Source: a virus. From it: DNA of 52,791 bases. The DNA is taken from positions 1 through 52,791 of the IMG/VR virus record IMGVR_UViG_3300020055_001962; one strand, 5' to 3'. Positions 19,231-47,900 of this stretch are shown here, in pieces (position 1 is the first letter of the stretch; every line of letters starts with the position of its first letter). A program made the translations under genes and the position numbers. The notes beneath the pieces were generated by a model. The model had not been told where the DNA came from, ran no database searches, and saw only the letters and a program-made list of their open reading frames with translations.

Positions 19231-19251
19231 AATTCTGGTTGACAGAATTTT
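19229..19251 (+). terminator. Stem-loop at the end of the virion block, overlapping a -35 box
   Basis: AAAATTCTG and CAGAATTTT form a perfect 9 bp stem with a GTTGA loop. The stem starts in the stop codon of the last virion gene and ends in a short T run. The stem is AT-rich, so termination may be weak. The loop and right arm contain TTGACA, the -35 element of the next promoter. Confidence 0.45.
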
Positions 19252-19267
19252 TAACTTAGTATATACT
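19239..19267 (+). promoter_or_regulatory. Sigma70-type promoter opening the accessory island
   Basis: TTGACA (19239-19244), a 17 nt spacer and TATACT (19262-19267) give a near-consensus host-type promoter. The predicted start is near 19274, with AAAGGAG ahead of ATG 19291. It is one of three similar promoters found in the island, none of which has a NATAAATA box. Confidence 0.85.
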
Positions 19268-19290
19268 AAAGAGACTAAAAGGAGTGACAA

Positions 19291-19638
19291 ATGGACGAAA
19301 AACTTTCCAAGGCGTTACAGTTCGCTAACTACACAAGAACTTTTGAAGATCAGAGACGTCTTCTTAAAGAAAAATACTTTGACAGTTTAGTTTTTTATCA
19401 TGCCGGTGGGCAGTTTACTATTGATAAAACGCTGTTGTCTTTTGTAGATCTTATTCTAAAAAAACAAACATCAGCAGTATTAATCGATGATAACGATAAT
19501 CCAATTCAAGTTGACGATCTACAATCTTTTTACGATGATATCCTTAGTTTGTATTTTGAGTCAAGTAATAACTTTTTTACAAAAATTACTAACTTAAAAA
19601 CTAAGAGATCTGTAGAAAAATTGGTGGATTATGACTAA
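19291..19638 (+). CDS. Small phage protein of unknown function, first gene of the island
   Basis: The protein has 115 residues, is soluble and mixed alpha/beta, and has no recognisable catalytic motif. Features include the helical start DEKLSKALQFANYTRTFEDQRR, a FHAGG-like turn (FYHAGGQF), the segment SAVLIDDNDNPIQVDD and a helical C-terminus. It starts at ATG 19291 after AAAGGAGTGACAA, directly under the sigma70-type promoter, and overlaps the next gene by 8 nt. A sense-strand frame from 19043 also reaches into this region but has no independent support. Being promoter-proximal it would be made at the highest level in the operon; its role is unknown. Confidence 0.75.
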   Translation: MDEKLSKALQFANYTRTFEDQRRLLKEKYFDSLVFYHAGGQFTIDKTLLSFVDLILKKQTSAVLIDDNDNPIQVDDLQSFYDDILSLYFESSNNFFTKITNLKTKRSVEKLVDYD

Positions 19639-20473
19639 AGGATATTTGTTAATTGCACACAACAATAGTGCAAACGATTACTTAAAACAAGCAGTACATT
19701 GTGCAGAAAGAATAAAACAATACTGCAAAGGTGCGTCAGTATCTATTATTACAAACAGCAAGTCTTATTTGAAAAAGAATTATGATCATAAAGTGTTTGA
19801 TCATATTATTAATGCAAAAAAGATTTCTGGCTTACATGCTAATAATAGAATTATTTTTGACGGAGCACTTTCGAAAAAAACAGTTCAATGGAAAAATGCT
19901 GGCAGAGACCAGGCATATGAACTGACACCATACGATGAAACTATTCTTCTTGATACAGATTACATTTTTTCAAATAATAATTTAGATAATTGTTTTGGAA
20001 GTGTAAATGATATTATGATGTATAAAAAATCGCAATATCTTGGACATCAAGAAGTAAAAGAATTTAATCGTTGTGCAGATGCAAGTATTGACTTTTACTG
20101 GGCTACTGTTATATATTTTAGAAAAAGCGAAAAGGCCGAACGTTTGTTTGAGCTAGTAACCCATATTAGAGAAAATTGGTTTTACTATAATAATCTATAT
20201 AATATGAACAGTCCTAATTTTAGAAACGATTATGCATTTAGTATTGCAATACACACACTAAACAGTATGTTGTCAAATGGAAATTATGTTGCTCAATTGC
20301 CGGGCAAGATGTATTATACTAAAGATCAAGATTTTCTTGAAAATATTAAAGATGATAAACTAACATTTTTAGTAGGAAAAAAAGATCACTTAGGCGAATA
20401 CACAATGTTATCTTCTACCGGACTAAATGTACACGTTTTAAATAAAGCAAGTTTGGAGAGAGAAATTGGATAG
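19631..20473 (+). CDS. GT-A-type glycosyltransferase-like protein
   Basis: This 280-residue protein starts at ATG 19631 within the end of the previous gene. It begins GYLLIAHNNSANDYLKQAVHCAERI, followed by a strand of the type VSIITNS and, near residue 106, ILLDTDYIF, a DxD-type motif that would bind a nucleotide-sugar and metal in the GT-A fold. The later region includes the acidic tract YYTKDQDFLENIKDDK. The next gene is a paralogue with the same plan, VMDTDML at the same place. The likely reaction is sugar transfer to an unknown acceptor. Donor and acceptor cannot be read from sequence. A nucleotidyl-diphosphate-sugar transferase-like fold without activity remains possible. Confidence 0.68.
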   Translation: MTKGYLLIAHNNSANDYLKQAVHCAERIKQYCKGASVSIITNSKSYLKKNYDHKVFDHIINAKKISGLHANNRIIFDGALSKKTVQWKNAGRDQAYELTPYDETILLDTDYIFSNNNLDNCFGSVNDIMMYKKSQYLGHQEVKEFNRCADASIDFYWATVIYFRKSEKAERLFELVTHIRENWFYYNNLYNMNSPNFRNDYAFSIAIHTLNSMLSNGNYVAQLPGKMYYTKDQDFLENIKDDKLTFLVGKKDHLGEYTMLSSTGLNVHVLNKASLEREIG

Positions 20474-21305
20474 AGGAATTGTATTAGTAGCTCAAAACAA
20501 TGGAGAGCATGATTATGTAGAACAAGCAACAGCTCTAGCCATGAGTTTAAAGAAACATAACAACGTAAATGTTTCTATAATTACAGATGATTATGTTACT
20601 CCAAATCAGCGAGAATATTTTGATCAAGTGTTACCAATTAGTTGGGGAGACATGGCAGACGGCAAGACTTGGAAAATTGAAAACAGATGGAAAGTCTTTT
20701 ATCAAACACCGTATAAAGAAACTATTGTTATGGATACTGATATGTTAGTTATGCGTAACATTGATCATTTATGGGATTTTTATTCTAATTATGATTTATT
20801 TTTTACAACTAGTCCAGTAACTTATCGAAATGAAAAATTAACTTCTCTCTATTACAGAGAAATTTTTGAAAAGAATAAATTGCCTAACATATATTCTGCA
20901 TTATACTATTTTAAAAGAACTCCGTTTAGTCATAACTTCTTTTCTTTTTTAGAATGTGTTGTTAAAGATTTTGACAGTTTCCAAGAACTGTTGTGTCCTA
21001 ATATGAAACAAGAAAGTCTAAGTATGGATGTCGCTATTGCTATGGCTATACAAGTAGCAGACATTGAAGACAAGGTTACAAATAAAAATTCTGATGTTTC
21101 TACTTTTGTGCATATGAAACCTTACGCACAAAACTGGCGTCAGCCTCGTTCGTCATGGCAACACACTGTTAATTCTTATTTTACAAACGATCTTGAGTTG
21201 TATGTTGGAAACTATAAACAAGAAGGTATCTTTCATTATACGGAAAAAGATTTTTTGGATAATGCAAATATTATAGATAAACTAGAGAGTTCTGAAGATG
21301 AGTGA
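20466..21305 (+). CDS. GT-A-type glycosyltransferase-like protein, paralogue of the upstream gene
   Basis: The protein has 279 residues. TTG 20466 (overlapping the upstream stop by 8 nt) is the chosen start because the sequence from there, RGIVLVAQNNGEHDYVEQATALAMSL, aligns with the start of the preceding paralogue. It has the strand NVSIITDDYV and the metal-binding type motif ETIVMDTDMLVMRN near residue 90. Aromatic-rich segments follow, and HMKPYAQNWRQPRSSW lies near the C-terminus. It is predicted to be a cytosolic sugar transferase acting with the upstream protein; a heteromeric pair is possible. The specificity is unknown. Confidence 0.7.
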   Translation: MDRGIVLVAQNNGEHDYVEQATALAMSLKKHNNVNVSIITDDYVTPNQREYFDQVLPISWGDMADGKTWKIENRWKVFYQTPYKETIVMDTDMLVMRNIDHLWDFYSNYDLFFTTSPVTYRNEKLTSLYYREIFEKNKLPNIYSALYYFKRTPFSHNFFSFLECVVKDFDSFQELLCPNMKQESLSMDVAIAMAIQVADIEDKVTNKNSDVSTFVHMKPYAQNWRQPRSSWQHTVNSYFTNDLELYVGNYKQEGIFHYTEKDFLDNANIIDKLESSEDE

Positions 21306-21885
21306 TTTACTTGACTTAATAAAACGTCTAAAGGTTGACAGCGAGCAATCTAATAAACATTATGTTTATTTTGATGAAGAAACATTAAAGATCCATAAAA
21401 TTTCTCCTCGTAAAGAAGAAGGAGATATGACATTTTTTGAAACAGACACTTCTACTGTAGAACCTATTCTTAAAGGAATTTACGGGTTAGACAAATATTC
21501 AGCATACTACGATTTTAAAAATAAAAATTATAGTATTAAGCAAAACGAACAAGAAAGTTTTGCAAATGTAAATGTCTTAGAAGTAAAACCTAATAGCGGA
21601 ACAACAGATTTAACTTTGGTACTAGGTGATAAAAGTATTAAGTTTGAACTTGATGAAAACTTAAAAGATCACGTTAAGAAAACTAGACAACATTTGTTTT
21701 TTGTATTGACCGAGAAAAATAATCCTTATAAAATCTATTCTAAGTTAAATTTTGATAGTAGTACCTTATGCAACGATACATTCGAACTTCAACATCAACT
21801 TTCAAAGAAACAACTTCGAAAAGGAGTAAGTATTTTTACAAATAAATTCTTTTCTTCTTATAAAAGGAAAATAGCAGTTAAATGA
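21298..21885 (+). CDS. Protein of unknown function in glycosyltransferase operon
   Basis: This 195-residue soluble protein begins at ATG 21298 and overlaps its neighbours by 8 and 4 nt, so translation is probably coupled. It starts with a helical segment SDLLDLIKRLKVDSEQ, then runs of short strands rich in Lys, Asp and Glu (YVYFDEETLKIHKISP, TDLTLVLGDKSIKFELDE) and ends in a very basic tail SSYKRKIAVK. No catalytic motif, Cys cluster or membrane segment is seen. It may be an accessory protein of the flanking glycosyltransferases; this rests on position only. Confidence 0.65.
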   Translation: MSDLLDLIKRLKVDSEQSNKHYVYFDEETLKIHKISPRKEEGDMTFFETDTSTVEPILKGIYGLDKYSAYYDFKNKNYSIKQNEQESFANVNVLEVKPNSGTTDLTLVLGDKSIKFELDENLKDHVKKTRQHLFFVLTEKNNPYKIYSKLNFDSSTLCNDTFELQHQLSKKQLRKGVSIFTNKFFSSYKRKIAVK

Positions 21886-22814
21886 ATACATTCCGTCCAG
21901 TTGATCATGATATCATCTATCTGTCCTACGATGAACCTAACGCAGAAAAAAACTATGCAGATTTGTGTTCAAAAGTTCCGTGGGCAAAACGTGTACATGG
22001 AATAAAAGGTTCAGATGCTGCACACAAGGCTTGTGCTGAAATGAGCGAAACTGATCATTTTATTACCATCGACGGTGATAACAGAATTAGAGACGGATTT
22101 TTAGACCAAGAAATTAAATTAGATGAAAATGATATTTTACAAAATTCAGTAATTAGTTGGTGTGGTCAAAATGTAATTAACGGATTAATATACGGCAACG
22201 GTGGGATTAAATGTTGGCCTAAAGAATATGTTCGACGAATGAGAACACATGAAAATGCAGATCCTGCTAATAAACAAGCACAAGTAGACTTTTGTTGGGA
22301 CGCACATTATATACAACAAAATAGTTGTTTTAGTGATGTTTATAATAATGCTACTCCTCTTCAAGCATGGCGAGCTGGTTTTCGAGAAGGTGTAAAGTTA
22401 GCCCTTGATCGAGGAAAAAAATTAGAAAAAGAAGAGTTTGTAAGAAAAGCCCACTGGCGTTGCTTGCACATGTTATACATTTGGACAATGGTAGGTGCAG
22501 ATGTTGAAAACGGACTATGGGCGATTTATGGTGCAAGACAAGGTTTGTTTATGACAATGTGTTCTGACTGGGATTACGTTAATGTTCGTGATTTTGAATA
22601 TTTGAATGATATGTGGCAACATGAAAAAGAGAAAGAAGATGGACTGCTTATACAAATACAAGCATTAGGAAATGATCTAATTAATAATTTAGATATTCCT
22701 ATTGATCCTAATCCTTTGTTGCCTAACCAGAGTAAGTTTTTTAAAACAGTTTACAATAATCCTACCCGTGATTTAACAAAGCTCATAGACATCGAAGAAG
22801 GTGCAAATGGATGA
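21882..22814 (+). CDS. Glycosyltransferase-like protein (family with DGD motif), copy 1
   Basis: The protein has 310 residues. The N-terminus reads DIIYLSYDEPNAEKNYADL, then AKRVHGIKG, and near residue 65 ITIDGDNRI, a DxD-like acidic motif. A second gene, at 27269, has the same plan (FISYKEPNAEDNW, AKRVNGVKG, VVDGDAEI). Later segments pair as well, for example AWRAGFREGVKLA here and TWKSAFRECAKL there. A GT-A-like fold is inferred from the motif and order of strands. It starts at ATG 21882 (ATGA overlap with the gene before) and overlaps the first radical-SAM gene by 4 nt. Substrates are unknown. Confidence 0.6.
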   Translation: MNTFRPVDHDIIYLSYDEPNAEKNYADLCSKVPWAKRVHGIKGSDAAHKACAEMSETDHFITIDGDNRIRDGFLDQEIKLDENDILQNSVISWCGQNVINGLIYGNGGIKCWPKEYVRRMRTHENADPANKQAQVDFCWDAHYIQQNSCFSDVYNNATPLQAWRAGFREGVKLALDRGKKLEKEEFVRKAHWRCLHMLYIWTMVGADVENGLWAIYGARQGLFMTMCSDWDYVNVRDFEYLNDMWQHEKEKEDGLLIQIQALGNDLINNLDIPIDPNPLLPNQSKFFKTVYNNPTRDLTKLIDIEEGANG

Positions 22815-23962
22815 GCGAAAGTTCAAGACCCTACAGTAAACTTTCTGATGGTAGAACTGTAGATCCTTTGTTTGGTCCTATTTGGATCAAAGAAACAAAG
22901 GGCATGTCTGATAATAAAAAAGACTTAAAAGGAAGATACTGTCCTAAGTTGTTTACTTGGTTAGAAGTAGACATGTTTGGAAAAGCATGGCTATGTTGTC
23001 CTAGTTGGTTGCCGTATCCTATTGGAAATGTTTTAACAGATAGTTTAGAAGAAATGTGGAACGGTGAACGTGCAAAAGAATTGCGTAACCAAGTATTTAC
23101 AGGAGATTGGAAATATTGTCAGCATGACTTTTGTCCTTCTATAGTGGCTGACTTATTACCTAATGTTAATGAAGATACTCCAAAAACTACTACTGCTGAA
23201 TTACCTACTAGTATAAATTTTTCAAATGACGAGAGTTGCAATTTAAAATGTCCTAGTTGTCGTGTAGATAAACTATTGTATACTGAAGGTCCTCTATATG
23301 AAAGACGCAAAGAAGTAAACGATAAGTTATATGATATGCTTTTTTCTACGCCAACAGATAGAAATTTTAGTATTAATGTTACTGGTAGTGGCGATCCTTT
23401 TGCTAGTAAAATTTACAGAGATATGCTTTCTAAAATTGATGGAAAAGATTTTCCAAACTTAGAAGTAAATTTACAAACTAACGGAGTAATGTTTACACCT
23501 AAAAATTGGAATCGTATATCTAAGATTCATTCTAATTTAAGACGATGTGCTATAAGTTTTGATGCAGGTACAAAAGAAACTTACGAAAACAAAACTAGAG
23601 TTGGCGGCGATTGGGAATTACTTTTAGAAAACTGTAAATTTCTTGATAAACAAGTAGAACAAAATCCAAACTTTTATATGGTTTATGAGTTTGTAGTACA
23701 AGTAGATAACTACAAAGAAATGCGCCGTTATGTTCGTTTAGTTGATAACTTGTTTCCAAATGCTTCGAGTATTACGTTTAGCCTTGTTACCGACTGGGGT
23801 ACGTGGCCTAAAGATGTTTATGAACAAAAGTGTATTTGGAAAAATACACATCCAGAATATTCTAATCTTTTAAAAGTATTACAGGACAATATTTTTAAAC
23901 ATCCTAAAGTAAGATTAGGAAATCTTACAAATATATGGAAAGAAGCAAATGGATTGGGATAA
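22811..23962 (+). CDS. Radical SAM protein with N-terminal SPASM/twitch-like Cys cluster, copy 1
   Basis: This 383-residue protein has its Cys-rich auxiliary-cluster region first: YCPKLF near residue 44, WLCCPSW near 62, GNVLTDSLEEMWNG, then YCQHDFCPS near 106. The radical SAM core follows with C143-x3-C147-x2-C150 in ESCNLKCPSC. The core motif cleaves S-adenosylmethionine to give a 5'-deoxyadenosyl radical. The order, auxiliary cluster before core, is opposite to classical SPASM enzymes. The C-terminus contains an additional EFVVQ strand and aromatic residues. The start is ATG 22811 with ATGA overlap. It forms a pair with the next gene. The substrate, whether peptide, sugar or other, is unknown. 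Confidence 0.85.
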   Translation: MSESSRPYSKLSDGRTVDPLFGPIWIKETKGMSDNKKDLKGRYCPKLFTWLEVDMFGKAWLCCPSWLPYPIGNVLTDSLEEMWNGERAKELRNQVFTGDWKYCQHDFCPSIVADLLPNVNEDTPKTTTAELPTSINFSNDESCNLKCPSCRVDKLLYTEGPLYERRKEVNDKLYDMLFSTPTDRNFSINVTGSGDPFASKIYRDMLSKIDGKDFPNLEVNLQTNGVMFTPKNWNRISKIHSNLRRCAISFDAGTKETYENKTRVGGDWELLLENCKFLDKQVEQNPNFYMVYEFVVQVDNYKEMRRYVRLVDNLFPNASSITFSLVTDWGTWPKDVYEQKCIWKNTHPEYSNLLKVLQDNIFKHPKVRLGNLTNIWKEANGLG

Positions 23963-25238
23963 ATCACCTCAAGAAATTTACGAGTCTACAAAGCACTATT
24001 GTCCTTTGTTATGGAATCATCTTCATGTTAATACGTTAGGAGATGTGCAACCGTGCTGCATGGCACCGTTCGGAACATCAATGGGTAATATAAACGAAAA
24101 GCCACTTGATGAAATATGGAACGGTAATGCAATGAAGAAGGCAAGGCGGCGTTTGTTAAAAGACTTGCCTCTTAATACTTGTGAAGGTTGCTATGACAAA
24201 GAACGAAGTAGTAACTGGAGTTTGCGAAAAGCAAGTATTGTAAAATATCACGATAGTGTAAAAGGTCTTTTAGAAACAACATATCCGGACGGTACAAGTT
24301 TAGATAGCAAACCAACTTATTTAGATATAAGATTTAGTAATATATGTAATATGCGTTGTCGTATGTGTGGACATTTTTCTAGCAGTAAATGGTTTAATGA
24401 TGCTAAACGTTTAAGTAAGGAATTTGATAACCATCGTTATATTGGTAGCGATAGTAAGCATGCAATTATACACGCAGTAGATGATGTTGCTAAGTTGTTG
24501 TCTAGGTTAGACGAGTATTTGCCGCACGTACAAGAATTGTATTTTGCCGGCGGCGAACCAATGATAATGGAAGAACATTATCGTATACTTAAAAGATTAG
24601 AAGAATTAAAACTGTATAATACTTTTATTAGGTATAACACTAATTTCCTGCAATTATATTACAAAGATAAAGACATATTAGAATTATGGAAAAAATTTAC
24701 AAATATACACTGTAGTATAAGTGTTGATACATATGGAGAACGTGCTGAAATTTTAAGACACGATACCGTTTGGTCAAAAATAGAAGAAAACATAGTACGT
24801 GTTAAAAAAGAAGTTCCACATGTTAGATTTAACATAACTCCGACAGTACAAATTTTAAATATTTTAACTATTACTGATTTACACAAAGATTGGTGTGAAA
24901 AAGGATGGGTAGGACCTAATGATTTATTTTTAAATATATTACATACTCCATCTTTTTACAATATAAAAGCATTGCCACATCATTTAAAATTAGAAGCAGA
25001 GAAAAAATTCAAAGATCATTTAAAATGGTTGAGTGAAAATTATGCAGATAATTTATTCAGCGTAACTAACACTATAAATAACTCTATAAGTTATATGATG
25101 GGAGAACAATTGAGCGAAGACCATTTAACAGAGTTTTGTAAACAAACTAGTCAACTAGACTATATACGGAAACAAGACAGTCATAAAACGTTTCCGGAGT
25201 TAGAATATATATGGAGCAACTATGATAAAAAAGATTAA
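23949..25238 (+). CDS. Radical SAM protein with N-terminal SPASM/twitch-like Cys cluster, copy 2
   Basis: The protein has 429 residues. The auxiliary region comes first: HYCPLLWNHLHVNTLGDVQPCC, GNINEKPLDEIWNG, then TCEGCYDKE. The radical SAM triad is C133-x3-C137-x2-C140 in NICNMRCRMC. FAGGEPMI near residue 200 is the GGEP-type motif that contacts SAM. The gene begins 14 nt inside its upstream paralogue-like neighbour and overlaps the downstream oxygenase by 17 nt, so the three are likely translated as one unit. Divergence from copy 1 is high, which suggests different substrates. It is confidently a radical SAM enzyme; the reaction is not known. Confidence 0.87.
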   Translation: MDWDKSPQEIYESTKHYCPLLWNHLHVNTLGDVQPCCMAPFGTSMGNINEKPLDEIWNGNAMKKARRRLLKDLPLNTCEGCYDKERSSNWSLRKASIVKYHDSVKGLLETTYPDGTSLDSKPTYLDIRFSNICNMRCRMCGHFSSSKWFNDAKRLSKEFDNHRYIGSDSKHAIIHAVDDVAKLLSRLDEYLPHVQELYFAGGEPMIMEEHYRILKRLEELKLYNTFIRYNTNFLQLYYKDKDILELWKKFTNIHCSISVDTYGERAEILRHDTVWSKIEENIVRVKKEVPHVRFNITPTVQILNILTITDLHKDWCEKGWVGPNDLFLNILHTPSFYNIKALPHHLKLEAEKKFKDHLKWLSENYADNLFSVTNTINNSISYMMGEQLSEDHLTEFCKQTSQLDYIRKQDSHKTFPELEYIWSNYDKKD

Positions 25239-25758
25239 GTTAGACTATGATTTTAGTGTGTTTTTAAATGCTGATTATAGTAAGCACTATGGTAGTTGCA
25301 TTAGTTATCAAGTACGTGAACAAGAAGATATACACCAAAAAGTTGGCGGCTTTCCAAAAAGTTACCACGAAGATAATACACGTATACAGCAGTTATGGTT
25401 TGATGATGGAGATATAGATTATTCTTTGCTTGGCGAAAGATTAGGTATGGAAGTAATTACAGTTAGCTCTATTTTACAACCACCGGGTAATGTTATTACA
25501 CTCCATAGAGATACATTTTTTCAAATTAATAAACAATATCCTAATGATACTAGAACAAAAGTACGTGCAAACGTATACTTAGAAGAATGGGCTCCTGGCC
25601 ATTTAATTAATTATCAAGATGAAAATTTCGACTGGCAAACAAGTACGCACTGGAATCAAGGCGAAGGATTTATTTGGGATAGCCAACACTTGCATTTAAG
25701 CGGAAATGCAGGATTAGTTCCTAAGTATACACTACAAGTAAGTGGATTTTTAAATTAA
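25222..25758 (+). CDS. 2OG/Fe(II) oxygenase-fold protein
   Basis: This 178-residue protein has the pieces of a double-stranded beta-helix iron site: H95-R-D97 in ITLHRDTFF and a distal His in SQHLHLSG (H156 or H158), with a GFIWD turn before it. The ending YTLQVSGF is typical of the last barrel strands. The expected reaction is 2-oxoglutarate-dependent hydroxylation, releasing succinate and CO2; the 2OG-binding basic residue was not placed with certainty. It starts at ATG 25222 inside the upstream radical SAM gene and its 3' end overlaps the convergent minus-strand gene by 9 nt. It is the first of eight such folds in the window. Confidence 0.72.
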   Translation: MIKKIKLDYDFSVFLNADYSKHYGSCISYQVREQEDIHQKVGGFPKSYHEDNTRIQQLWFDDGDIDYSLLGERLGMEVITVSSILQPPGNVITLHRDTFFQINKQYPNDTRTKVRANVYLEEWAPGHLINYQDENFDWQTSTHWNQGEGFIWDSQHLHLSGNAGLVPKYTLQVSGFLN

Positions 25759-29288: not shown

Positions 29289-29289
29289 C

Positions 29290-31065: not shown

Positions 31066-31076
31066 GAGGAACTAAA

Positions 31077-34639: not shown

Positions 34640-34642
34640 TTC

Positions 34643-38736: not shown

Positions 38737-38740
38737 AACT

Positions 38741-40546: not shown

Positions 40547-41170
40547 ATGTATGAAAATTCTACACTATATTCTGCATTAACAAGATTTGGAGATTATTAT
40601 CCTCTAAGGCTTGAATACAATGTAGACAATATTATTGAAGAACTAGAAGAAAAATTTGAGTGGGTTCAGTACAACCCACGTAAAAAGAATGATCGATACG
40701 GATTAAGTATTACTAGTTTAGACGGAGGTTTGTCAGGAAGACCTGATCTTGACTCCTTGTACGAATATTATAATGAAACAGGTATTGCTCTACACGATTG
40801 GGACTTCAATAAAAAAACTCCAATATATTCATATTTTGAACAATGGCTAAATCCTTTCGAAAAATGGTTAGGACGTACCCACGTTATTAAACTTAACGCA
40901 GGAGGGTTCTTTCCTCCACACCGAGATCACAAGCATGCTAACATTGATTCTTTCAGAATCTTTTTGCCGCTAAATTATAACACCCGTGCTGCTTTCTTTT
41001 TACTAGAAGATAAAAGAATGGAATTTAAGAATGGAACAATGTATTTTATTGATACTGCTAAAATGCATACCCTATTCAACACATCAGAAACTCCTTTCTA
41101 TTTTGTTGTAGGAAACATCACACTAACTGAGGAAAGTGTCGAAACAGTGGCTAAACACTTGTTTGGGTAA
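40547..41170 (+). CDS. 2OG/Fe(II) oxygenase, aspartyl/asparaginyl hydroxylase-like
   Basis: This 207-residue protein has an iron site of the double-stranded beta-helix type: H125-R-D127 in FFPPHRDHKH and distal H174 in DTAKMHTLF, with FRIFLPLNY between them and FYFVVGNI after. The pattern resembles aspartyl/asparaginyl beta-hydroxylase-like phage proteins; 2OG is the likely co-substrate. The start is the ATG immediately after the preceding stop codon. Soluble, no signal. It follows the triple methyltransferase and precedes the desaturase gene by 26 nt. The protein or small-molecule substrate is not predictable. Confidence 0.75.
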   Translation: MYENSTLYSALTRFGDYYPLRLEYNVDNIIEELEEKFEWVQYNPRKKNDRYGLSITSLDGGLSGRPDLDSLYEYYNETGIALHDWDFNKKTPIYSYFEQWLNPFEKWLGRTHVIKLNAGGFFPPHRDHKHANIDSFRIFLPLNYNTRAAFFLLEDKRMEFKNGTMYFIDTAKMHTLFNTSETPFYFVVGNITLTEESVETVAKHLFG

Positions 41171-41196
41171 CTAAATATTTTATAGACGGTAAACAT

Positions 41197-41931
41197 ATGG
41201 AAAATACAACCAAATTATTAGTTAATCATGCATTTTGTCATTTACTACTTATTCCGGCCTTCATTTACGGTGAGTGGTGGATGTTTCTTGCTGGATTTGT
41301 TTGGTGGTACGTAGTTGCTATTGTTGCTATTAGTGGCGGCTATCACAGATATTACTCACACCGTTCTTTTTCAACTGGCAAGTGGTATCCTTATATTGTT
41401 AATTTATTAGGTATGTTTAGTGGCGCTGGCCCTGTACTTTCTTGGGTAGGAGCACATCGTATGCATCACGCACATAGTGACACTGACAAAGACCCTCATA
41501 GTTATACTTTTAAAGGTTTTTGGTCAATATACTTGAATACTTGGGGGTATTCAACCCGCATTGATCGCAAGTATATGCGAGATGTTTTAAAAGACAATAC
41601 TGTACGCTGGTTTTATAAAAACTATTTTAAAATTAATTTATTAATTATTGTAGTGTTTTTTCTTATTGATCCATTGTTCTTAATTTTTGGTTATGCATTA
41701 CCTACAGTTTTTGCATTTCATGGTTATGGCTTATTAAACACTCTAGGGCACAAAAATGCACAACCAAGAAATACTTGGGTTGGAAATATTTTAACAGCTG
41801 GCGAGGGATGGCATTTAAATCACCACAAACAAGGATGGAACTGGAGACTAGGCCGAGATTGGTGGCAGTTTGATCCAACAGCAACTTTTATAAGGATGAT
41901 AAAACATGACACTACCGTATCTGGAAATTAA
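41197..41931 (+). CDS. Membrane fatty-acid desaturase / hydroxylase-type di-iron enzyme
   Basis: This 244-residue protein has the three histidine boxes of membrane desaturases: HRYYSH (H50 and H55), GAHRMHHAH near residue 86, and GEGWHLNHH near 210. Hydrophobic segments lie at about 12-46, 60-75 and 145-175. These enzymes use O2 and electrons from ferredoxin or cytochrome b5 to introduce double bonds into acyl chains, or hydroxylate them, in the membrane. It is short against typical 270-390 residue acyl-CoA desaturases, but all motifs are intact. The start is ATG 41197 after GACGGTAAACAT. It has no cognate partner in the window and would draw on host electron donors. Confidence 0.9.
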   Translation: MENTTKLLVNHAFCHLLLIPAFIYGEWWMFLAGFVWWYVVAIVAISGGYHRYYSHRSFSTGKWYPYIVNLLGMFSGAGPVLSWVGAHRMHHAHSDTDKDPHSYTFKGFWSIYLNTWGYSTRIDRKYMRDVLKDNTVRWFYKNYFKINLLIIVVFFLIDPLFLIFGYALPTVFAFHGYGLLNTLGHKNAQPRNTWVGNILTAGEGWHLNHHKQGWNWRLGRDWWQFDPTATFIRMIKHDTTVSGN

Positions 41932-41961
41932 AAATAAAATAGCACAAACGGAGTATGCACT

Positions 41962-42552
41962 GTGAAAGTTATAACACTTGAAGAATATGGTGAAAAAGAA
42001 TTTCTTTCTGAATTAAAAAGAATAAAAGAAATGAATTATGCCGGAGATCAACGTAATATAGATTGGTTTGATCGTATACCTGAAATTTATAAAACTAGAT
42101 TTCCGAATTGGTGGTTTTTAATGGATCGCAACGACAAACTTGTAATGTTTGCTACTGTACAAGAATTTTATCAAGGATGCTGGCGTTTGTTAACAAGATC
42201 GTATATTCTTCCAGAATATAGAAGACCAATTTTGCCTGATAGAGATACTATGAAAAGCCCTAGTATGTATATTATACAAGAACAAATGAATTATTTGCAA
42301 AACGTAGATTTAAGCCTATTTGGAAACGAAGTTAATACATATTTTATTTCTATGCAAGACTTAAAACGTCGGAAATCTTTGGATAGATATAGAAAAAAGT
42401 TAGGTCCAAATTGGAAATTACTTCCAACAATGATGCAAACTTGCAAAGAATGTGATGACTTAAATTGCTGGCAAAATATAATTTATACAGGAGAAGTTCC
42501 AAGAAATAATACTATGTCACTTGAGGAATGGAGAGAAAAATTTGAAGGATAA
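41962..42552 (+). CDS. GNAT-like protein of unknown function
   Basis: This 196-residue protein starts at GTG 41962, after CGGAG in the 30 nt gap. A strand series reads WWFLMDRNDKLVMFATVQEF, then CWRLLTRSYILPEYRRP, which is like the central strands of the GNAT acyltransferase fold; the expected acetyl-CoA loop (Q/RxxGxG/A) is not seen. The later half is charged and helical (DLKRRKSLDRYRKKLG) and contains CKECDDLNCW, which might bind a metal. It overlaps the beginning of no neighbour and ends 4 nt before the next ATG. Acyl transfer is only a possibility. Confidence 0.5.
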   Translation: MKVITLEEYGEKEFLSELKRIKEMNYAGDQRNIDWFDRIPEIYKTRFPNWWFLMDRNDKLVMFATVQEFYQGCWRLLTRSYILPEYRRPILPDRDTMKSPSMYIIQEQMNYLQNVDLSLFGNEVNTYFISMQDLKRRKSLDRYRKKLGPNWKLLPTMMQTCKECDDLNCWQNIIYTGEVPRNNTMSLEEWREKFEG

Positions 42553-42556
42553 TACT

Positions 42557-43210
42557 ATGACAGAAAAATGTTTAGTCGAACGCACAAGAAGAGACCGTGT
42601 TAATGGTACAGGCCCGAAAAGAAACCAACTAGTAACTTTTAAAAAACTAGGAGAAGTTTCGGATGAAACATATGAGTATCTTAACAAATTTTTAATTGAC
42701 AACCCGCACAGTGACATTGGTAGTGATGACTATTCTATCAGTCGTAGTTGTAATTATGAAAAAGTATTTAATGTAGGACAGAGTTATAGACAGGTCATAT
42801 TGCAGAGAAATTCTTCAAATAATCATTACACAGTTGATGAGTACATTTATAAGAAATGGATACCAGGTAGTGAAATAGTACAAGAAGAAATGAAAGGTTT
42901 TTTCAATAACGTTTATAGATTCAGACTAAGTGAAATGCAGCCAGAACATACGCTTAATTGGCACATAGACGCTGATACAAGCGTCATATGCCGTGCTCAA
43001 ATATGTTTGAACGAAAACAATAGTACTTTTTTGTTTAAGGATAAGCAGGGCGTACACGAGTTTCAAATGAAACCAAAGGAACTTTGGTTCGTAAACACAG
43101 GGTGGTCACACACTGTAACAAATGATGCTGGTAATGTAAGAAAAGTTGCAATACTAGGATTTCACTATGATGATTTAAGACCAGATTTACAAAAGGAGAT
43201 AACTCTATAA
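42557..43210 (+). CDS. 2OG/Fe(II) oxygenase, aspartyl/asparaginyl hydroxylase-like
   Basis: This 217-residue protein runs from ATG 42557; a longer frame from 42521 overlaps the previous gene without a better ribosome site. The iron facial triad is H136-I-D138 in LNWHIDADT and H185 in TGWSHTV, with RAQICLNEN between and KVAILGFHYDD after. MQPEHTLNWH is like the entry strand of aspartyl/asparaginyl beta-hydroxylase proteins. It is the first of five 2OG-type genes in a row. The stop and the next ATG overlap as TAATG. Its substrate may be a protein side chain or a sugar. Confidence 0.78.
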   Translation: MTEKCLVERTRRDRVNGTGPKRNQLVTFKKLGEVSDETYEYLNKFLIDNPHSDIGSDDYSISRSCNYEKVFNVGQSYRQVILQRNSSNNHYTVDEYIYKKWIPGSEIVQEEMKGFFNNVYRFRLSEMQPEHTLNWHIDADTSVICRAQICLNENNSTFLFKDKQGVHEFQMKPKELWFVNTGWSHTVTNDAGNVRKVAILGFHYDDLRPDLQKEITL

Positions 43211-44055
43211 TGGAAGTAGTTCGTTCGTTACCTGGAGTAGGTATAGAATATAAATTAAATTTTAATTCTATGACCAAAGACGAAATAAAAGAATTTGGCA
43301 GACGCATACCAAAAGATAATGTTATTGTTGTACGTAACCAAGATCTTACAGATGAAAAAGTGTTAGAAGTTTGCGAAACAATTGGTCGTTGTATGAAACC
43401 AAAACAATTTTTTATGCACAACAAAGTACCAGGTTTATTTAGAGTTACTAACGAAAGAGATGAACATGGTGAAAAAACAGGACTGTTTGCAGACAAAGAA
43501 CTAGACTGGCACAGCAACGGCAACGGACGTCCAAGCGGAATGGAAGCATGTGTAGCACTATATTGTGTTAGACCCGGTGTAGACAGCGTTACGAGCTTCT
43601 GTGACACCAGACAAGCATACATTGACTTGCCTGATGATATCAAAGAAATAGTAGATGATGTAGAATGTTTGTTTAAATTTGAAAACAATACATTTTACGA
43701 TCTAGAAGAAGATGACAAAGAGCTAGTTATATTTGAACAGCATCCTGACTTTGTAGATGGGGTTAACAAGAGTCTAGTATATACACATCCGTGGACTGGA
43801 GAAAAAGGTTTGTATTTTACGTTCCATTATATTAGAAAAATGTGGCGCAAAGATGGTACACCCCTCGACCAAGAATGGCTCAAACAATATCTGTTAGATC
43901 ATGTTTTCCAAGAAAAGTACATTTACCATCACGATGATTGGAAACCAGGTGATTTTGTGTTCATGGATCAGTTCCATAGTATTCATAAACGCAATGAAGT
44001 AAAAGGTGATAGATTGCTGTATAGACTATCTTTTGACTATAAGAAGGTGTTTTAA
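43210..44055 (+). CDS. TauD/TfdA-type dioxygenase with an H-x-N iron motif
   Basis: This 281-residue protein has the TauD/TfdA plan: VIVVRNQDLTDE strand and helix, ELDWHSNGNGRPSGMEACVALYC, then DFVFMDQFHSIHKRN with H256 and RLLYRLSFD with the 2OG-binding type arginine. The proximal pair is H101-S-N103, where the family has H-x-D. The codon is AAC, so this is real in the read. An Asn at this position is unusual and could alter or abolish hydroxylation; halogenases of this superfamily have Ala or Gly there. The gene begins within the previous stop (TAATG) and ends directly before the next ATG (TAAATG). Confidence 0.78.
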   Translation: MEVVRSLPGVGIEYKLNFNSMTKDEIKEFGRRIPKDNVIVVRNQDLTDEKVLEVCETIGRCMKPKQFFMHNKVPGLFRVTNERDEHGEKTGLFADKELDWHSNGNGRPSGMEACVALYCVRPGVDSVTSFCDTRQAYIDLPDDIKEIVDDVECLFKFENNTFYDLEEDDKELVIFEQHPDFVDGVNKSLVYTHPWTGEKGLYFTFHYIRKMWRKDGTPLDQEWLKQYLLDHVFQEKYIYHHDDWKPGDFVFMDQFHSIHKRNEVKGDRLLYRLSFDYKKVF

Positions 44056-44688
44056 ATGAGAGAGTTACGTTATAGATATGAAGATAGGTTTGCAGAAACA
44101 CAAGGATATGATGATTTTCAAGCAGACAAACTAGAACTTCTAGAGTTTTACGAAACAAAAGTTAAGCCTAAATTTGAAGCATCACACGATGTTCTTAAGC
44201 GTGATCAAGACGACCAAATAGTACATCATTTGTGCTATGATTGTAATATGAATCTTTGGAGAGAGGTTTACGAACGTGTAAAAAATATTGCTGATAAGAG
44301 TGGAGTATACATTAACTGGGAGCAAATTAAACATGTAATAAAATTTACATTTTTAGGACAACCTCCAGGTGGATATTTCATGCCGCATGTTAATTACAAC
44401 TTGTTAGCATTAAGTGCATTTAATATACCATTAAAAGGAAAAACTGAAATAGCATTGTTTCAGGATAATGAAACTGAAATAACACGTCATGAATATTTTA
44501 ATCCTTGCTTTTTAAATGTTAATAGACCTCATGCTGTTTTTAACGATATGCCTACCGAACGTCTAATATTAAAAACACACATGACAGTTGTGCCTTGGCA
44601 CAAACTAGTAGAAACTTATGAAACAGGAAATAAGTTTGAACTTTTTGATGAACCAGCACCTTGGGAATCAGTTGAAAGAAGGTGGTAG
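44056..44688 (+). CDS. 2OG-oxygenase-fold protein with an H-x-N motif
   Basis: This 210-residue protein is similar in style to its Asp/Asn hydroxylase-like neighbours. It shows GGYFMPHVNYNLLALSAF with H111-V-N113 at the iron-site position, LKGKTEIALFQD, and FLNVNRPHAVFNDMPTERLILKTH with H159 and a later Arg. The Asp of the H-x-D pair is Asn, as in the adjacent TauD-like protein. The N-terminal 80 residues are helical. It starts at ATG 44056, directly after the upstream stop. It might be catalytically altered, a scaffold, or bind a different metal. The next gene starts one base after its stop. Confidence 0.68.
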   Translation: MRELRYRYEDRFAETQGYDDFQADKLELLEFYETKVKPKFEASHDVLKRDQDDQIVHHLCYDCNMNLWREVYERVKNIADKSGVYINWEQIKHVIKFTFLGQPPGGYFMPHVNYNLLALSAFNIPLKGKTEIALFQDNETEITRHEYFNPCFLNVNRPHAVFNDMPTERLILKTHMTVVPWHKLVETYETGNKFELFDEPAPWESVERRW

Positions 44689-44689
44689 A

Positions 44690-45364
44690 ATGGATTTTAC
44701 ATTTTGTGCTATTGACATAGGCATTACACAGGACGAAAAGCAAACAATTTTAGAAGAACTGTTAACAGTACCGGATGAGTTTTATCAGTCTAATAGTTTT
44801 AGAGGATGTCGAATTTTACCTATATACAATGGCGGTGGACTTAGAGGTCAAAGAGAAGAAACAGGCGATACTACTGTAGGTGATTTTGTTTATACAGATG
44901 TTGAACCATTCATACAAAAAAGTATAAAAATATTTGAAGAAAAAATATTCCCATGGATGGAACCAGTTGGCAGATTAAATTTGTTGCGTACAGCACCCGG
45001 CTTAGGTCTAAACACACACTTAGATACAAAAGCAGAAGAAGTAGGAACAAGACAACACAAATATAGATTAGTACTTAATGGAAAAATTGATAAATTATTC
45101 TTTCTAGATAAAAATGGAAACAAAATTTATGTTCCACAGTGTTATGACAGTTATGTATTAGACGGAAGCCACCCTCATAGTTTAGATCCAGGCGAAGAAG
45201 AAAAAATTACACTTTGCATAGGAAGACCTTGGGACGGACATCCAACAGATAAGTACACAGAATTTTTACAAAATGCACTTTTTACAATGAAAGTTAGCAG
45301 ACCAGAAAAAATAGAGGAGAGCTGGGTTGACCCATATTTCAGATACACCACAAGAGATTCTTAA
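44690..45364 (+). CDS. 2OG/Fe(II) oxygenase, aspartyl/asparaginyl hydroxylase-like
   Basis: The protein has 224 residues. ATG 44690 with GAAGGTGGTAGA before it is chosen; the longer frame from 44618 overlaps the previous gene. The iron site is H110-L-D112 in LNTHLDTKAE and H161 or H163 in GSHPHSLDPGEE. The strand YRLVLNGKIDKLFF lies between, and KITLCIGRP follows. This is an intact facial triad, unlike the two preceding genes. The 3' end overlaps the TTG start of the next dioxygenase by 38 nt. Hydroxylation of a peptide, protein or sugar is the likely role. Confidence 0.75.
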   Translation: MDFTFCAIDIGITQDEKQTILEELLTVPDEFYQSNSFRGCRILPIYNGGGLRGQREETGDTTVGDFVYTDVEPFIQKSIKIFEEKIFPWMEPVGRLNLLRTAPGLGLNTHLDTKAEEVGTRQHKYRLVLNGKIDKLFFLDKNGNKIYVPQCYDSYVLDGSHPHSLDPGEEEKITLCIGRPWDGHPTDKYTEFLQNALFTMKVSRPEKIEESWVDPYFRYTTRDS

Positions 45365-46112
45365 TAAGTGTCAATGGGACGGCTTTTGGATTCAGCGTGG
45401 CATTGATTTTAATAGACAAGAGTTTTTAGATTTTTGTAGCAGTGTTTCTACACCATGGACTGAAAATATATACGAACTGCACTCTGAATCAACAGATGAA
45501 GATGAGTTAGTATTATGGTCGAGTAAATCTAGATTTGGAGGTCTTAGTCTTCCTTGGCACTCAGATAATGCTTGGCATCCTGAATACAGATTTCCGTTAA
45601 GGGTTTTATATGCTATAACTACACATTCTGATGATGAAATTCATTTTTTAAATACTGCTAAATGGTTTCACGATCAATCAGAAGACATGCAAGAATATTT
45701 AAGATCGTTAAAAGTTCTAACACAGTGTTACAAAGGTGGATGTCAGCCTTTTTGGGGACCTTTCATTAAAAAGCATCCTATTACAGGTAGAGAAAATTTT
45801 CATTGGGGAGCAATGAGAGTTGGCGGCAGAAATGTTTTTGGTTTGCAACATCCCGAAGGCTGGCCGGCTCCTAGATTTAGTTTTACAATGGCAATAGAAA
45901 AGCCTAATAGAGATTTAGTATTAGACGATGAAATTTGTGATTGGTTTGAATCTATGTTAGATGAAAAGTATTTTTACACACATAAATATCAAAAGGGCGA
46001 TATTGTTATCATCGACAACTCAGTTTCTATGCACTATCGAGGACCTCTTGTTGAAGATACTGAACGGCTTTTTTGGCGTAAAACGTTATTACAACCTTGG
46101 CAAACATTATGA
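45327..46112 (+). CDS. TauD/TfdA-type 2OG dioxygenase
   Basis: This 261-residue protein begins with a TTG at 45327 with GAGGAGAGC 9 nt upstream; the 38 nt overlap with the previous gene makes this start less certain. The core has LSLPWHSDNAWHPEYRFPLRVLYAI with H78-S-D80, and IIDNSVSMHYRGP with H236, followed by TERLFWRKTL with the arginine. This is a complete TauD-type triad. The middle contains the Trp/Gly-rich GGCQPFWGPFIKKHPITGR. 2OG-dependent hydroxylation is expected. The last gene of the oxygenase run; its stop overlaps the next ATG (ATGA). Confidence 0.82.
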   Translation: MTHISDTPQEILNKCQWDGFWIQRGIDFNRQEFLDFCSSVSTPWTENIYELHSESTDEDELVLWSSKSRFGGLSLPWHSDNAWHPEYRFPLRVLYAITTHSDDEIHFLNTAKWFHDQSEDMQEYLRSLKVLTQCYKGGCQPFWGPFIKKHPITGRENFHWGAMRVGGRNVFGLQHPEGWPAPRFSFTMAIEKPNRDLVLDDEICDWFESMLDEKYFYTHKYQKGDIVIIDNSVSMHYRGPLVEDTERLFWRKTLLQPWQTL

Positions 46113-47476
46113 AAATAGCATTAGTATCGATGCCTAGTCAAAATTACTGGCATCCTGCACCTAGTATAGTATTTTTAAAAGGACTTCTTAATAGAGAAGG
46201 AATTAACAGTACTTGCTTTGACTTGAATCATGCATTTCTAACTGAGTTTGGTGACGATGCTATTGACTGGTGTGAAACAGCACAAAATTATAATCCAAAG
46301 TATGCAGATTTTGTTGAAGAATACGCAGAGCGTTTTGTTGGTTATGATTACATTGGTGCTAGTGTGTTTACACTAAACAGTCAAATATTTACTAGATTGT
46401 TTTGTAGAATTATTCGAACAAAGTTTCCTAACACTAAAATTATTTTAGGTGGCGCAGGCATTACTAATAATCATAGTGACCTTAGCGATATAAGTATGCA
46501 TTTTGGCGAAGATATGTTAAAAGCAAACTTAGCAGACTATGTTGTTAAGGGTGAAGGAGACAAAGCATTACCTGCATTACTTAGAGGTGAAAAATATGAA
46601 TTTCCTCAAATGGATGATTTATCGAATCTTCCAATACCGGATTATAGTGATATTGACTTTGCTTTGTATTCTAAACCTACTCTTGTTGTTACGGGAAGTA
46701 GGGGCTGTGTAAGACAATGTACTTTTTGTGACGTACACGCAAATTGGAAAAAGTACCGTTATCGCCCAGGTGAAGAAGTTGCTAATGAAATTATTCATCA
46801 GTATTATACATATGGTATTAAGCATTTCCATTTTAGTGATAGTTTAGTAAATGGTTCTTTGAAAGAATTTAGAGTGTTTTGTAAAACACTTGCAAAGGCC
46901 AAACTGCCTATAGAATGGAGAGGTCAGTTTATTTTCCGTAGTGGTATGACTGAAGAAGATTGGGATAATCTAGCAGCAAGCGGTTGCAAAGGACTTTGGA
47001 TAGGAATTGAAAGCGGCAGCGATGCTGTACGCTGGCATATGAAAAAGAAGTTTACTAATAAGGATATGTACGAAAGTGTACATGCCCTTGGTAAACGCAA
47101 AATTAATATGTTATATCTTCTTATAGTAGGTTATCCTACAGAAACAGAAGAAGACTATGAAGAAACATTAGAGCTGCTAAGACAGTCAGTTCCTTACAAA
47201 GACTATGTTGAAGTTAGATGTAATATTGCAATGCTTATGCCTGATACAGAAATATTTGAAGATAAAAACCTATGGCACGGCGAAGTACAATTATGGCGTA
47301 GTTGGACCAAAGACGGTGAACTTACTTATAGAGTAAGATATGAGCGTTGGAAAAATTTGCACAATCTTGTAAAAGAATTAGGATTAACTGGCGATAAACG
47401 TATTAAGCAACAAGAAAAACTAATATTGCGTAAACTGGAAAAAGAAAATGAAAGAATATTACTTAACAACGTTTGA
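46109..47476 (+). CDS. B12-binding-type radical SAM enzyme
   Basis: This 455-residue protein starts at ATG 46109 (ATGA overlap); a TTG four codons before is less likely. Residues 1-140 form a cobalamin-binding-like domain: MKIALVSMPS, the YDYIGASVFT strand, and KIILGGAGI; the DxHxxG motif for lower-ligand histidine is not present, as in several subfamilies. C200-x3-C204-x2-C207 lies in GSRGCVRQCTFCDVH. Further radical SAM strands include WIGIESGSDAVRWHM and YLLIVGYPTETEED. Enzymes of this class often methylate unactivated carbons or rearrange rings. The protein may methylate a product or intermediate of the island. It overlaps the next gene by 29 nt. Confidence 0.85.
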   Translation: MKIALVSMPSQNYWHPAPSIVFLKGLLNREGINSTCFDLNHAFLTEFGDDAIDWCETAQNYNPKYADFVEEYAERFVGYDYIGASVFTLNSQIFTRLFCRIIRTKFPNTKIILGGAGITNNHSDLSDISMHFGEDMLKANLADYVVKGEGDKALPALLRGEKYEFPQMDDLSNLPIPDYSDIDFALYSKPTLVVTGSRGCVRQCTFCDVHANWKKYRYRPGEEVANEIIHQYYTYGIKHFHFSDSLVNGSLKEFRVFCKTLAKAKLPIEWRGQFIFRSGMTEEDWDNLAASGCKGLWIGIESGSDAVRWHMKKKFTNKDMYESVHALGKRKINMLYLLIVGYPTETEEDYEETLELLRQSVPYKDYVEVRCNIAMLMPDTEIFEDKNLWHGEVQLWRSWTKDGELTYRVRYERWKNLHNLVKELGLTGDKRIKQQEKLILRKLEKENERILLNNV

Positions 47477-47900
47477 AACCAAATACGGTGATTTCTTTCA
47501 AGATTATTTAACAAACAAACAGAAAAGATTTCAAACTTTTTTACAAGGTGAAGATTTTTGGAAAACATACGTAAGTACATACAAATGGGCAAAAAAGCAA
47601 GGAATACTGCTTTTAAGAGCCAAAGTAATAGAAGGTAACGAATTCACTTTGTTTCAAATTTGGGAAAGTGAACAGTCTAGAAAAGAGTTTGATAGCAAAG
47701 TAGACGAAGATTATTTTTTAGAAAACTTCAAGTTTGAATATACTAGAAGCAATAAAACAATAAATGAAAAGCAAAAACTAGAACTAATAAAACAAATTAT
47801 GTCTAGTAATTCAATCTTACAATGGGTACATCCAGATCATAGAGTAACCGGTATGACTATTGGTGACCCTCTTAAGAATGATTCTTTGGTAACGGTATAG
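47448..47900 (+). CDS. Small protein of unknown function at the end of the island
   Basis: This 150-residue protein starts at ATG 47448, inside the end of the B12-type radical SAM gene. It is charged and mostly helical at first (YLTTFETKYGDFFQDYL), with strands LLLRAKVIEGNEF and TLFQIWESEQSRKEF in the middle; the middle is faintly like the ferredoxin-like antibiotic-biosynthesis-monooxygenase domain. No catalytic motif is present. Its 3' end overlaps the 3' end of the minus-strand oxygenase by 29 nt, which makes this the convergence point of the island and the right-hand operon. Function unknown. Confidence 0.6.
   Translation: MKEYYLTTFETKYGDFFQDYLTNKQKRFQTFLQGEDFWKTYVSTYKWAKKQGILLLRAKVIEGNEFTLFQIWESEQSRKEFDSKVDEDYFLENFKFEYTRSNKTINEKQKLELIKQIMSSNSILQWVHPDHRVTGMTIGDPLKNDSLVTV

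Follow-up and report, generated by a model that had tools for sequence, protein, structure and literature searches.

The window analysed here, the complete 52,791-nucleotide stretch of IMG/VR virus record IMGVR_UViG_3300020055_001962, contains a conserved syntenic operon of about 12.6 kb (positions 27963-40546), hereafter the core, surrounded by a variable shell. It is shared by two myovirus lineages that are only distantly related, the Mosig-like pelagimyophages and the PBECO4/121Q-like jumbo phages, with the window in the second. On balance we favour the interpretation that the core is a phage-encoded glycan-tailoring operon, which would make and attach a modified amino sugar. The region had first been described, from the sequence alone, as a 28 kb island (19231-47900) of redox enzymes and glycan-type biosynthetic genes inserted in a tail module (the original prediction). 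A redox-rich, glycan-type biosynthetic locus in a tail-fibre region is borne out by the Pfam content and the flanking fibre genes, and many marine phages keep this iron-sulphur-rich enzyme set in such a region.

The core operon and its recurrence

All core genes lie on the plus strand. The first encodes a nitroreductase-fold protein with an N-terminal extension (27963-29288; Pfam score 23.4 against a cut-off of 23.5 bits; Mosig homologue at 46%). It is followed by the first of three split pairs, each made up of a radical S-adenosylmethionine (rSAM) protein and a separate twitch/SPASM protein (29290-29910 and 29849-30214), a GT-B glycosyltransferase assigned from its predicted structure (A1, 30211-31065), a DegT-family sugar aminotransferase (31077-32156; Pfam E 7.9e-91, 305 bits), a nitroreductase-like protein (32167-32865), the second split pair (32867-33502 and 33504-33920), another nitroreductase-like protein (33953-34639), a nitroreductase above the Pfam cut-off (34695-35405; E 4.3e-8) and the third split pair (35398-36027 and 36024-36389). 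The last three genes encode a twitch-type rSAM protein with a BtrN-like predicted fold (A2, 36386-37225), an O-carbamoyltransferase of the NodU/TobZ family (37222-38736; Pfam E 1.7e-67 and 8e-20) and three fused copies of a methyltransferase-like domain (38741-40546). Four nitroreductases had been predicted; two are seen by Pfam, that at 27963 just under the cut-off, and the two at 32167 and 33953, which have no Pfam match, are assigned by homology to the annotated nitroreductase at Mosig 60990-61565 (E 6e-16 and 7e-23, respectively).

Loci for comparison were fetched by similarity to core families (the best 80 of 241, 80 of 266 and 80 of at least 539 relatives) and are not a census. Profiles of eight families were searched against the 229 fetched loci and Mosig, namely A1-A7 (GT-B, A2 rSAM, split rSAM (A3), twitch/SPASM, DegT, carbamoyltransferase and methyltransferase) with nitroreductase as an extra. 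Clustering at 93% identity over 1500 bp gave 102 clusters, one of which is Mosig alone. At least four of A1-A7 are present in 78 of the 102 clusters, all baited with core families, a count that includes both the window and the near-identical contig L038. Among 28 A1-anchored clusters of at least 18 kb, A2 is found in 22, the split rSAM, twitch and DegT families in 24 each, carbamoyltransferase in 23, methyltransferase in 20 and nitroreductase in 25, with A1-A7 complete in 14. The 27 A2-anchored clusters of at least 18 kb all contain DegT, carbamoyltransferase and methyltransferase; A1 and nitroreductase occur in 25 each, split rSAM and twitch in 23 each, and the set A1-A7 is complete in 21. 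When 46 A3-anchored clusters of any length are considered, twitch is present in 45, A1 in 31 and A2 in 30.

The usual gene order is A1, twitch/rSAM pair, DegT, nitroreductase(s), A2, carbamoyltransferase and methyltransferase, of which the window is a variant. Probable catalytic or cofactor residues are retained in all of the 61-83 rows aligned, and two glycines that were checked in 78/83 and 58/61. The median ratio of non-synonymous to synonymous substitution (dN/dS) is 0.11-0.28 for A1, A2, A3, DegT and the carbamoyltransferase. These are simple pairwise estimates from 25 loci picked by hand; saturated or tiny synonymous pairs were dropped, and among the rSAM and twitch proteins paralogues may have been compared with each other. 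When Mosig and eleven IMG/VR contigs were searched by BLAST, relatives of the genes at 27963-40546 were found in most of the larger contigs, and fewer relatives for 40547-47900 and for the left part of the island. Recurrence of the gene set in other marine phages, which the original prediction had proposed to check, is confirmed by the baited clusters and by the isolate Mosig. The single 28 kb island is reduced to a recurrent core of about 12.6 kb, the outer part being a variable shell found in a minority of loci; similarly, a patchwork, envisaged as the alternative, describes the shell and not the core, whose families co-occur across clusters.

The split pairs are a distinctive feature of the core. 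The stand-alone twitch/SPASM protein at 36024 matches the N-terminal part of NF033640 (N_Twi_rSAM; E 2.3e-6), and cysteines 12, 30, 31, 84 and 88 of the twitch protein are retained in 83/83 rows. The window also has a full member of NF033640 at 23949-25238 (367.9 bits, cut-off 170), whereas in the core the twitch and rSAM parts are separate open reading frames (ORFs), unlike the one-chain proteins of that family. The rSAM gene comes first in 47 pairs and the twitch gene in 36, and the two genes touch or overlap in 75/83; a frameshift origin of the split genes is ruled out because 36 of the 83 pairs are twitch-first. There are 11 A3-type rSAM ORFs without an adjoining twitch ORF. Fused forms also exist: in the 229 loci both profiles match L042, L157 of the same contig, L110 and L198, four ORFs in all. 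The split pairs would offer a useful model for the role of auxiliary clusters.

Proposed function of the core

A1 has no match above the Pfam cut-off, and at the thresholds applied PHROGs, NCBIfam and PDB sequences gave none either. Its AlphaFold2 model (predicted local distance difference test, pLDDT, 94.6; 64 sequences) has two Rossmann-like domains whose best relatives are GT-B enzymes, for example PimA (2gej; Z 16.2, root mean square deviation 4.0, 252 residues), and we assign A1 as a GT-B glycosyltransferase on the strength of this model. Retaining enzymes of GT4 type carry an acidic-x7-Glu motif. In A1 D232-x7-E240 is invariant (66/66), with Asp standing where Glu is usual.

The A2 model (pLDDT 87.5; 67 sequences) has BtrN as its best PDB match by Foldseek (E 7.9e-7). 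By structural Z score BtrN (14.6), BlsE (14.4) and SuiB (14.2) are tied, followed by SpeY and DesII at about 12, and anSME and EpeE are further neighbours; identity to BtrN in the structural alignment is 17%. Cysteines 23, 27 and 30 (CxxxCxxC) and 197, 216, 249 and 252 are invariant in 69/69 rows. BtrN oxidises 2-deoxy-scyllo-inosamine and holds its auxiliary cluster by four cysteines (PMC9012708, in excerpt), with which the four latter residues agree; they may likewise bind an auxiliary cluster. We read A2 as a probable sugar or cyclitol dehydrogenase.

Lys182 of the DegT enzyme, which from the family motif we take to be the Schiff-base lysine, is invariant (73/73 rows). The nearest structures are PDB 7b0d, QdtB and WbpE, and the nearest NCBIfam families PseC, LegC and ArnB, all under the family cut-offs. 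The carbamoyltransferase matches PF02543 and PF16861 above cut-off and the PDB profiles of GdmN, NovN and TobZ. Its H114, H118 and D137, presumably functional residues, are retained in 61/61 rows; it scores 131.9 against a cut-off of 1000 for the NCBIfam NodU equivalog, and is therefore not NodU itself. The methyltransferase-like domain is in single copy in 147 of 155 matching ORFs, some of which are repeats of one contig, double in 6 and triple in 2, both of these belonging to the sister contig of the window. The double form was seen in a few relatives (L050, L079 and L108), and by eye the third copy in the window protein (38741-40546) seemingly has no glycine-rich motif.

Two further genes without a recognised window member accompany the core elsewhere. 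One, on the sense strand and of about 105 amino acids, lies between DegT and A2 or adjoins DegT in 8 clusters (e.g., L244:12941-13261, L107:13642-13983 and relatives; L002:24095-25354), and has no window member in the families listed. The Mosig DegT carries this protein as a C-terminal fusion (BLASTP E down to 6e-18), which suggests an accessory role in the aminotransferase step and not a precursor. The other, a PP-loop ATPase-like protein (L042:15981-16763 and relatives) with weak QueC and TilS matches under cut-off, is found beside the core in 24/56 loci of at least 15 kb.

A probable dehydrogenase present together with a sugar aminotransferase, O-carbamoyltransferase, methyltransferase and glycosyltransferases argues for the making and attachment of a modified amino sugar. 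In the pathway that we propose, A2 (36386), acting like BtrN, would oxidise a sugar or cyclitol alcohol to the ketone, which the DegT enzyme (31077) would convert to an amine; the carbamoyltransferase (37222) would place a carbamoyl group on a hydroxyl, and the methyltransferase domain or domains (38741) would methylate the product. The split rSAM/twitch pairs and the nitroreductases might carry out further redox steps on the same sugar. A1 (30211) and accessory GT8-type enzymes would then attach the product to an acceptor that is formed or exposed in infection, presumably a surface glycan, either of the infected-cell envelope, where the change might alter or mask the receptor against competing phages, or of the tail fibres. 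Given the tail-fibre setting, host envelope and virion would be the best-fitting targets, and we slightly favour the envelope. Gene content, the fold of A1, the fold class of A2, the conserved cofactor or catalytic residues, and the conservation of the operon in two phage lineages are observed, whereas substrates, order of steps and acceptor are inferred.

The surroundings of the core bear on this proposal. Among 56 loci of at least 15 kb, a gene annotated as tail or fibre (four families) is present in 29, a supported glycosyltransferase family (two families) in 28, and both in 18; these counts rise to 35, 39 and 28 when less supported families are included. The supported glycosyltransferases near the core are GT8-like or glycogenin-like, and three further families have little or no support.

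Several observations weigh against glycan tailoring. In 28 of the 56 loci there is no second supported glycosyltransferase family, although each locus stops 10 kb away from its match, or where its contig ends, such that absence of a gene is uninformative. No set for synthesis of nucleoside diphosphate sugars was recognised in the window by Pfam, and the sugar donor would therefore be host-derived. SuiB and anSME, which have peptide substrates, fit A2 almost as well as BtrN does, and the DNA-modifying T4 alpha-glucosyltransferase is among the structural matches of A1 (Z 14.0). Constraint is weak in two families, the median dN/dS being 0.46 for the methyltransferase (maximum 0.83) and 0.61 for twitch (maximum 1.23). 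Finally, the putative functional assignment of the split pairs and nitroreductases is a weak point of the scheme.

No obvious precursor or product is encoded, as originally predicted, and no widespread short precursor was found among ORFs of at least 35 amino acids; the candidate targets then named (glycan, protein or small molecule) are here weighed as separate readings. It is unlikely, in our judgement, that the twitch/SPASM rSAM enzymes, nitroreductases and 2-oxoglutarate (2OG) oxygenases modify a tail-fibre protein or a small peptide. The structural neighbours of A2 (SuiB, anSME and EpeE) and the 105-amino-acid gene could be cited in favour, and nitroreductase-fold enzymes occur in peptide pathways. 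However, the fusion of the 105-amino-acid protein to DegT is accessory-like and not precursor-like. Among short families (median up to 110 amino acids, ORFs of at least 35), 14 occur in at least 13 clusters, yet 12 of these overlap core genes and two overlap the A12-type gene of the window. A further seven families, in 8-10 clusters, lie off the core genes; apart from the 105-amino-acid family, these are either annotated or sited near tail genes, or run antisense to the plus-strand core. Moreover, the sugar aminotransferase, GT-B enzyme and carbamoyltransferase have no obvious place in peptide modification.

Quite unlikely is a small diffusible metabolite, aminocyclitol- or nucleoside-like, made in infection against competing phages or neighbouring cells. 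The enzyme set does resemble antibiotic tailoring, with BtrN/SpeY-like rSAM, DegT, carbamoyltransferase and methyltransferase, but Pfam recognised in the window neither a scaffold-forming enzyme nor an exporter or a gene for self-resistance, and glycosyltransferases and tail genes are common neighbours of the core. Equally to be weighed is hypermodification of DNA, in which the operon would build a sugar-like group on phage DNA bases against restriction and A1 would be a DNA glycosyltransferase, as its T4 match might suggest. DNA hypermodification systems combine glycosyltransferases, carbamoyltransferases, aminotransferases and rSAM enzymes. Nevertheless, Tet_JBP was found in 0/20 records, a weak negative as no positive control matched, and the Thymidylat_synt/dCMP hydroxymethylase family in 2/20, not including Mosig (control matched 9/14); the IMG/VR records searched are or may be fragments, and that of Mosig is 75.73% complete (PMC7892664, in excerpt). 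We regard this role as improbable. Least probable of all is a patchwork without joint function held by a recombination hot spot: the outer half of the island is variable and regions of this type have been called hypervariable (PMC7029224, in excerpt), but the core families co-occur, mostly keep their order across two phage lineages and keep their probable catalytic and cofactor residues.

Phage lineages and known systems

The Pelagibacter phage Mosig EXVC030M (MT647606) carries the same core at 60990-72519, with 24-59% protein identity, between tail-fibre and baseplate genes. It differs from the window in having one rSAM/twitch pair, a single methyltransferase domain instead of three, and the small accessory part fused to DegT. 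The Mosig operon runs into three glycosyltransferase-like genes (one a Pfam GT8 match just under cut-off, two by look), with an SGNH-like gene (by look) also present, and an epimerase gene comes after the operon. None of the flanking structural genes of the window matches a Mosig ORF at E 1e-4, and megablast of window positions 19231-44200 against phage records gave a single 72 bp match, in Mosig. At the neck-gene end of the same Mosig region (39650-44735), several 2OG oxygenases are interspersed with genes whose annotations are bilin reductase, heme oxygenase and ferrochelatase. As Mosig was isolated on Pelagibacter ubique HTCC1062, in a culture that according to the published account contained two phages, the operon is open to direct testing.

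Among 50,697 phage records, A1, A2, twitch, the methyltransferase and the 27963-type nitroreductase were found only in Mosig. The split rSAM family was found in Mosig and, as a distant relative of 35398-36027 at 28%, in three Campylobacter phage records (CP220 and F379 being named). The carbamoyltransferase family is present in 144 of these records, most of them Synechococcus phages; identity is 55.8% for Mosig and 31-40% for the others among the matches listed. The cyanophage NodU-type enzymes thus belong to the same family, whereas A1, A2 and twitch are confined to Mosig among those records.

The lineage of the window is indicated by the giant virion structural protein at its left border (3-11048, plus strand; 3681 amino acids, open at the window edge; phrog_10938, E 1.7e-134), whose relatives by tblastn with 900 amino acids of the protein are PBECO4/121Q-like jumbo phages. 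For this protein and the 51590 protein at the other end, the best matches are PBECO4, 121Q and relatives, and Phosso, PA5oct and Atu_ph07. Of 50 core-bearing contigs, 20 have a relative of the giant protein (2015-residue part, E <1e-40) and 11 a Mosig-type VrlC (E <1e-40); none has both at this threshold and 19 have neither, weak second border hits being seen in G059 (1e-5), G056 (9e-4) and G015 (9e-4). Gp23 was found in 8/20 records, strongly (E 1e-147 or better) in Mosig, G014, G016, G017 and G023 and more weakly in G013, G015 and G020, and the five that have a type from VrlC or the giant protein divide in the same way. When 64 carbamoyltransferases are placed in a tree, 17 jumbo-type rows (the window labelled by its own border gene) and 12 VrlC-type rows are split by one branch with a Shimodaira-Hasegawa-like approximate likelihood ratio (SH-aLRT) support of 99, the other 35 rows being unlabelled. 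This is compatible with one exchange of the operon between the lineages, in either direction, followed by long retention.

The pelagimyophage host recognition cluster lies between VrlC and gp14. The sister contig G002 has no match to VrlC, but both it and the window are fragments, and the border seen is of jumbo type. Contig G005, which has the jumbo-type structural gene, shows the window layout reversed: fibre genes, glycosyltransferases, core, oxygenases, an Mtd-type fibre gene and a 51590-type gene. The G+C content per 2 kb is 0.30-0.37 within the island and 0.32-0.40 outside, and no tRNA was found in a scan of the window. The island does lie in a tail-fibre region; however, because composition is uniform and G005 keeps the layout from border to border, its insertion as a recent event is not supported.

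A scan of GTDB for A1 returned three loci (L267, L268 and L269), all in metagenome-assembled genomes (MAGs), the titles of which name Planctomycetota, Candidatus Pelagibacter and Rhodobiaceae, respectively. Each is collinear with Mosig, in L267 together with its annotated tail-fibre genes and in L269 as far as the gene beside VrlC's neighbours; they therefore look like phage contigs binned into bacterial MAGs. A2 was found in 1/297 genomes sampled from the order to which G065, a MAG with the title Candidatus Pelagibacter, belongs, and that one was G065 itself (contig L268/L270). Bacterial relatives of the pathway may exist, the GTDB scan having covered A1, and one order for A2.

The type of island is known. 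A hypervariable "host recognition cluster" of the structural region of pelagimyophages contains tail fibres, glycosyltransferases, proposed to alter the host O-chain, and radical-SAM cassettes (PMC7029224, 2020, in excerpt), and the window resembles it in these respects. It differs in that no conserved operon of this kind is described in the part of that paper drawn on here, a text search of the main text finding no mention of carbamoyltransferase, nitroreductase or aminotransferase, and in that the window is of a jumbo-type lineage with other borders. Four glycosyltransferase groups are treated in PMC12619734, where radical, oxygenase, carbamoyl and aminotransferase terms were not found in the excerpted text. 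Butirosin biosynthesis also has a BtrN-type twitch rSAM enzyme and a DegT enzyme in one operon, but 2-deoxy-scyllo-inosose synthase was not recognised in the window. In GenBank MT647606 the core is annotated gene by gene, and the excerpted Mosig announcement passes over the operon without comment (PMC7892664). The original prediction that no phage pathway with this set had been described therefore stands in part: no paper on this operon or enzyme combination was found by term searches of the open-licence literature of PubMed Central, but the setting is published and the genes are in MT647606. New here are the definition of a conserved operon in a known island type, an additional phage lineage, and the split twitch rSAM enzymes.

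Since the operon is conserved across two distant phage lineages, it should bring a benefit in infection, most likely in surface recognition or competition. More speculatively, and with considerable doubt, it might be a phage-only pathway to a sugar foreign to cells, with a two-subunit rSAM enzyme using an auxiliary iron-sulphur domain in trans, and have passed between pelagimyophages and jumbo phages owing to a decisive part of the sugar in host recognition or competition.

Variable shell, borders and assembly

The redox-enzyme inventory of the original prediction (seven rSAM cores, three SPASM proteins, desaturase, DegT, carbamoyltransferase and triple methyltransferase-like protein) was recovered, in part under cut-off or by motif or homology. 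All seven rSAM cores match Pfam Radical_SAM (22811, 23949, 29290, 32867, 35398, 36386 and 46109); the short ones at 29290, 32867 and 35398 fall under the curated cut-off (E 1.2e-4 to 3.5e-3), are mutually alignable and retain CxxxCxxC. SPASM is matched in three separate small proteins, above cut-off at 36024 and just under at 29849 and 33504-33920.

To the left of the core, on the plus strand, are two GT8/glycogenin-like GT-A glycosyltransferases (19631-20473 and 20466-21305), without a Pfam match, whose family profile matches PDB glycogenin at E about 2e-6 and has D90 and D92 invariant in 19 rows. Putative GT-A glycosyltransferases of family A12 are found at 21882-22814 and, as a paralogue, at 27269-27970, an assignment that is weak (GT2 match in 1/21 members). 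Between them are two full-length rSAM proteins with an N-terminal SPASM/twitch domain by Pfam domain order (22811-23962 and 23949-25238), and on the minus strand 25750-27177, which gave nothing meaningful in Pfam, PHROGs or PDB and is weakly related to one G005 protein only. The right part of the shell (40547-47900, plus strand) contains Asp/Arg-hydroxylase-like proteins (40547 and 42557), a desaturase above the Pfam cut-off (41197), TauD proteins (43210 and 45327), 2OG-like proteins by motif (44056 and 44690) and a B12-binding rSAM (46109). Seven 2OG-oxygenase folds had been proposed; four are seen by Pfam (TauD at 43210 and 45327 and Asp_Arg_Hydrox at 40547, with 42557 under cut-off), and four more, at 25222, 44056, 44690 and 47872 (minus strand), by an HxD...H-like pattern noted by eye. 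The 2OG oxygenases, desaturase and B12-binding rSAM occur in a minority of loci; of the 56 that reach 15 kb, 24 have the 40547-type oxygenase, 12 the desaturase and 11 TauD.

A chimeric assembly was considered and is ruled out at the assembly level. Contig G002, from another IMG/VR dataset, equals window positions 15312-52791 at 99.98% and spans both borders of the island, and G001 equals 39138-52791 at 99.94% and spans the right border only; both come from datasets other than that of the window and are collinear with it. The assembly is therefore judged sound, as far as assemblies can tell, and no sign of the chimera at the borders that had been raised initially was seen.

Tail-fibre-type genes flank the island on both sides, according to Pfam and PHROGs. 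Downstream of the giant structural gene, tail collar or fibre-type genes occupy 11678-19230 on the plus strand (11678, 13734, 15682, 17226 and 18226). PHROGs places 11678 in tail families and 13734 in virion structural families, and 15682 is related to both genes; 17226 and 18226, without a PHROGs match, are called fibre-type by position and G005 homology. On the right border is a minus-strand tail-fibre gene with an Mtd N-terminal domain (48951-50069; PF18454, E 1.1e-11). Beyond it, the minus-strand gene 51590-52789 is labelled HNH endonuclease by PHROGs (phrog_1314), a label that looks wrong, as HEILH and DMSGS motifs noted by eye suggest a metallopeptidase-plus-VWA protein.

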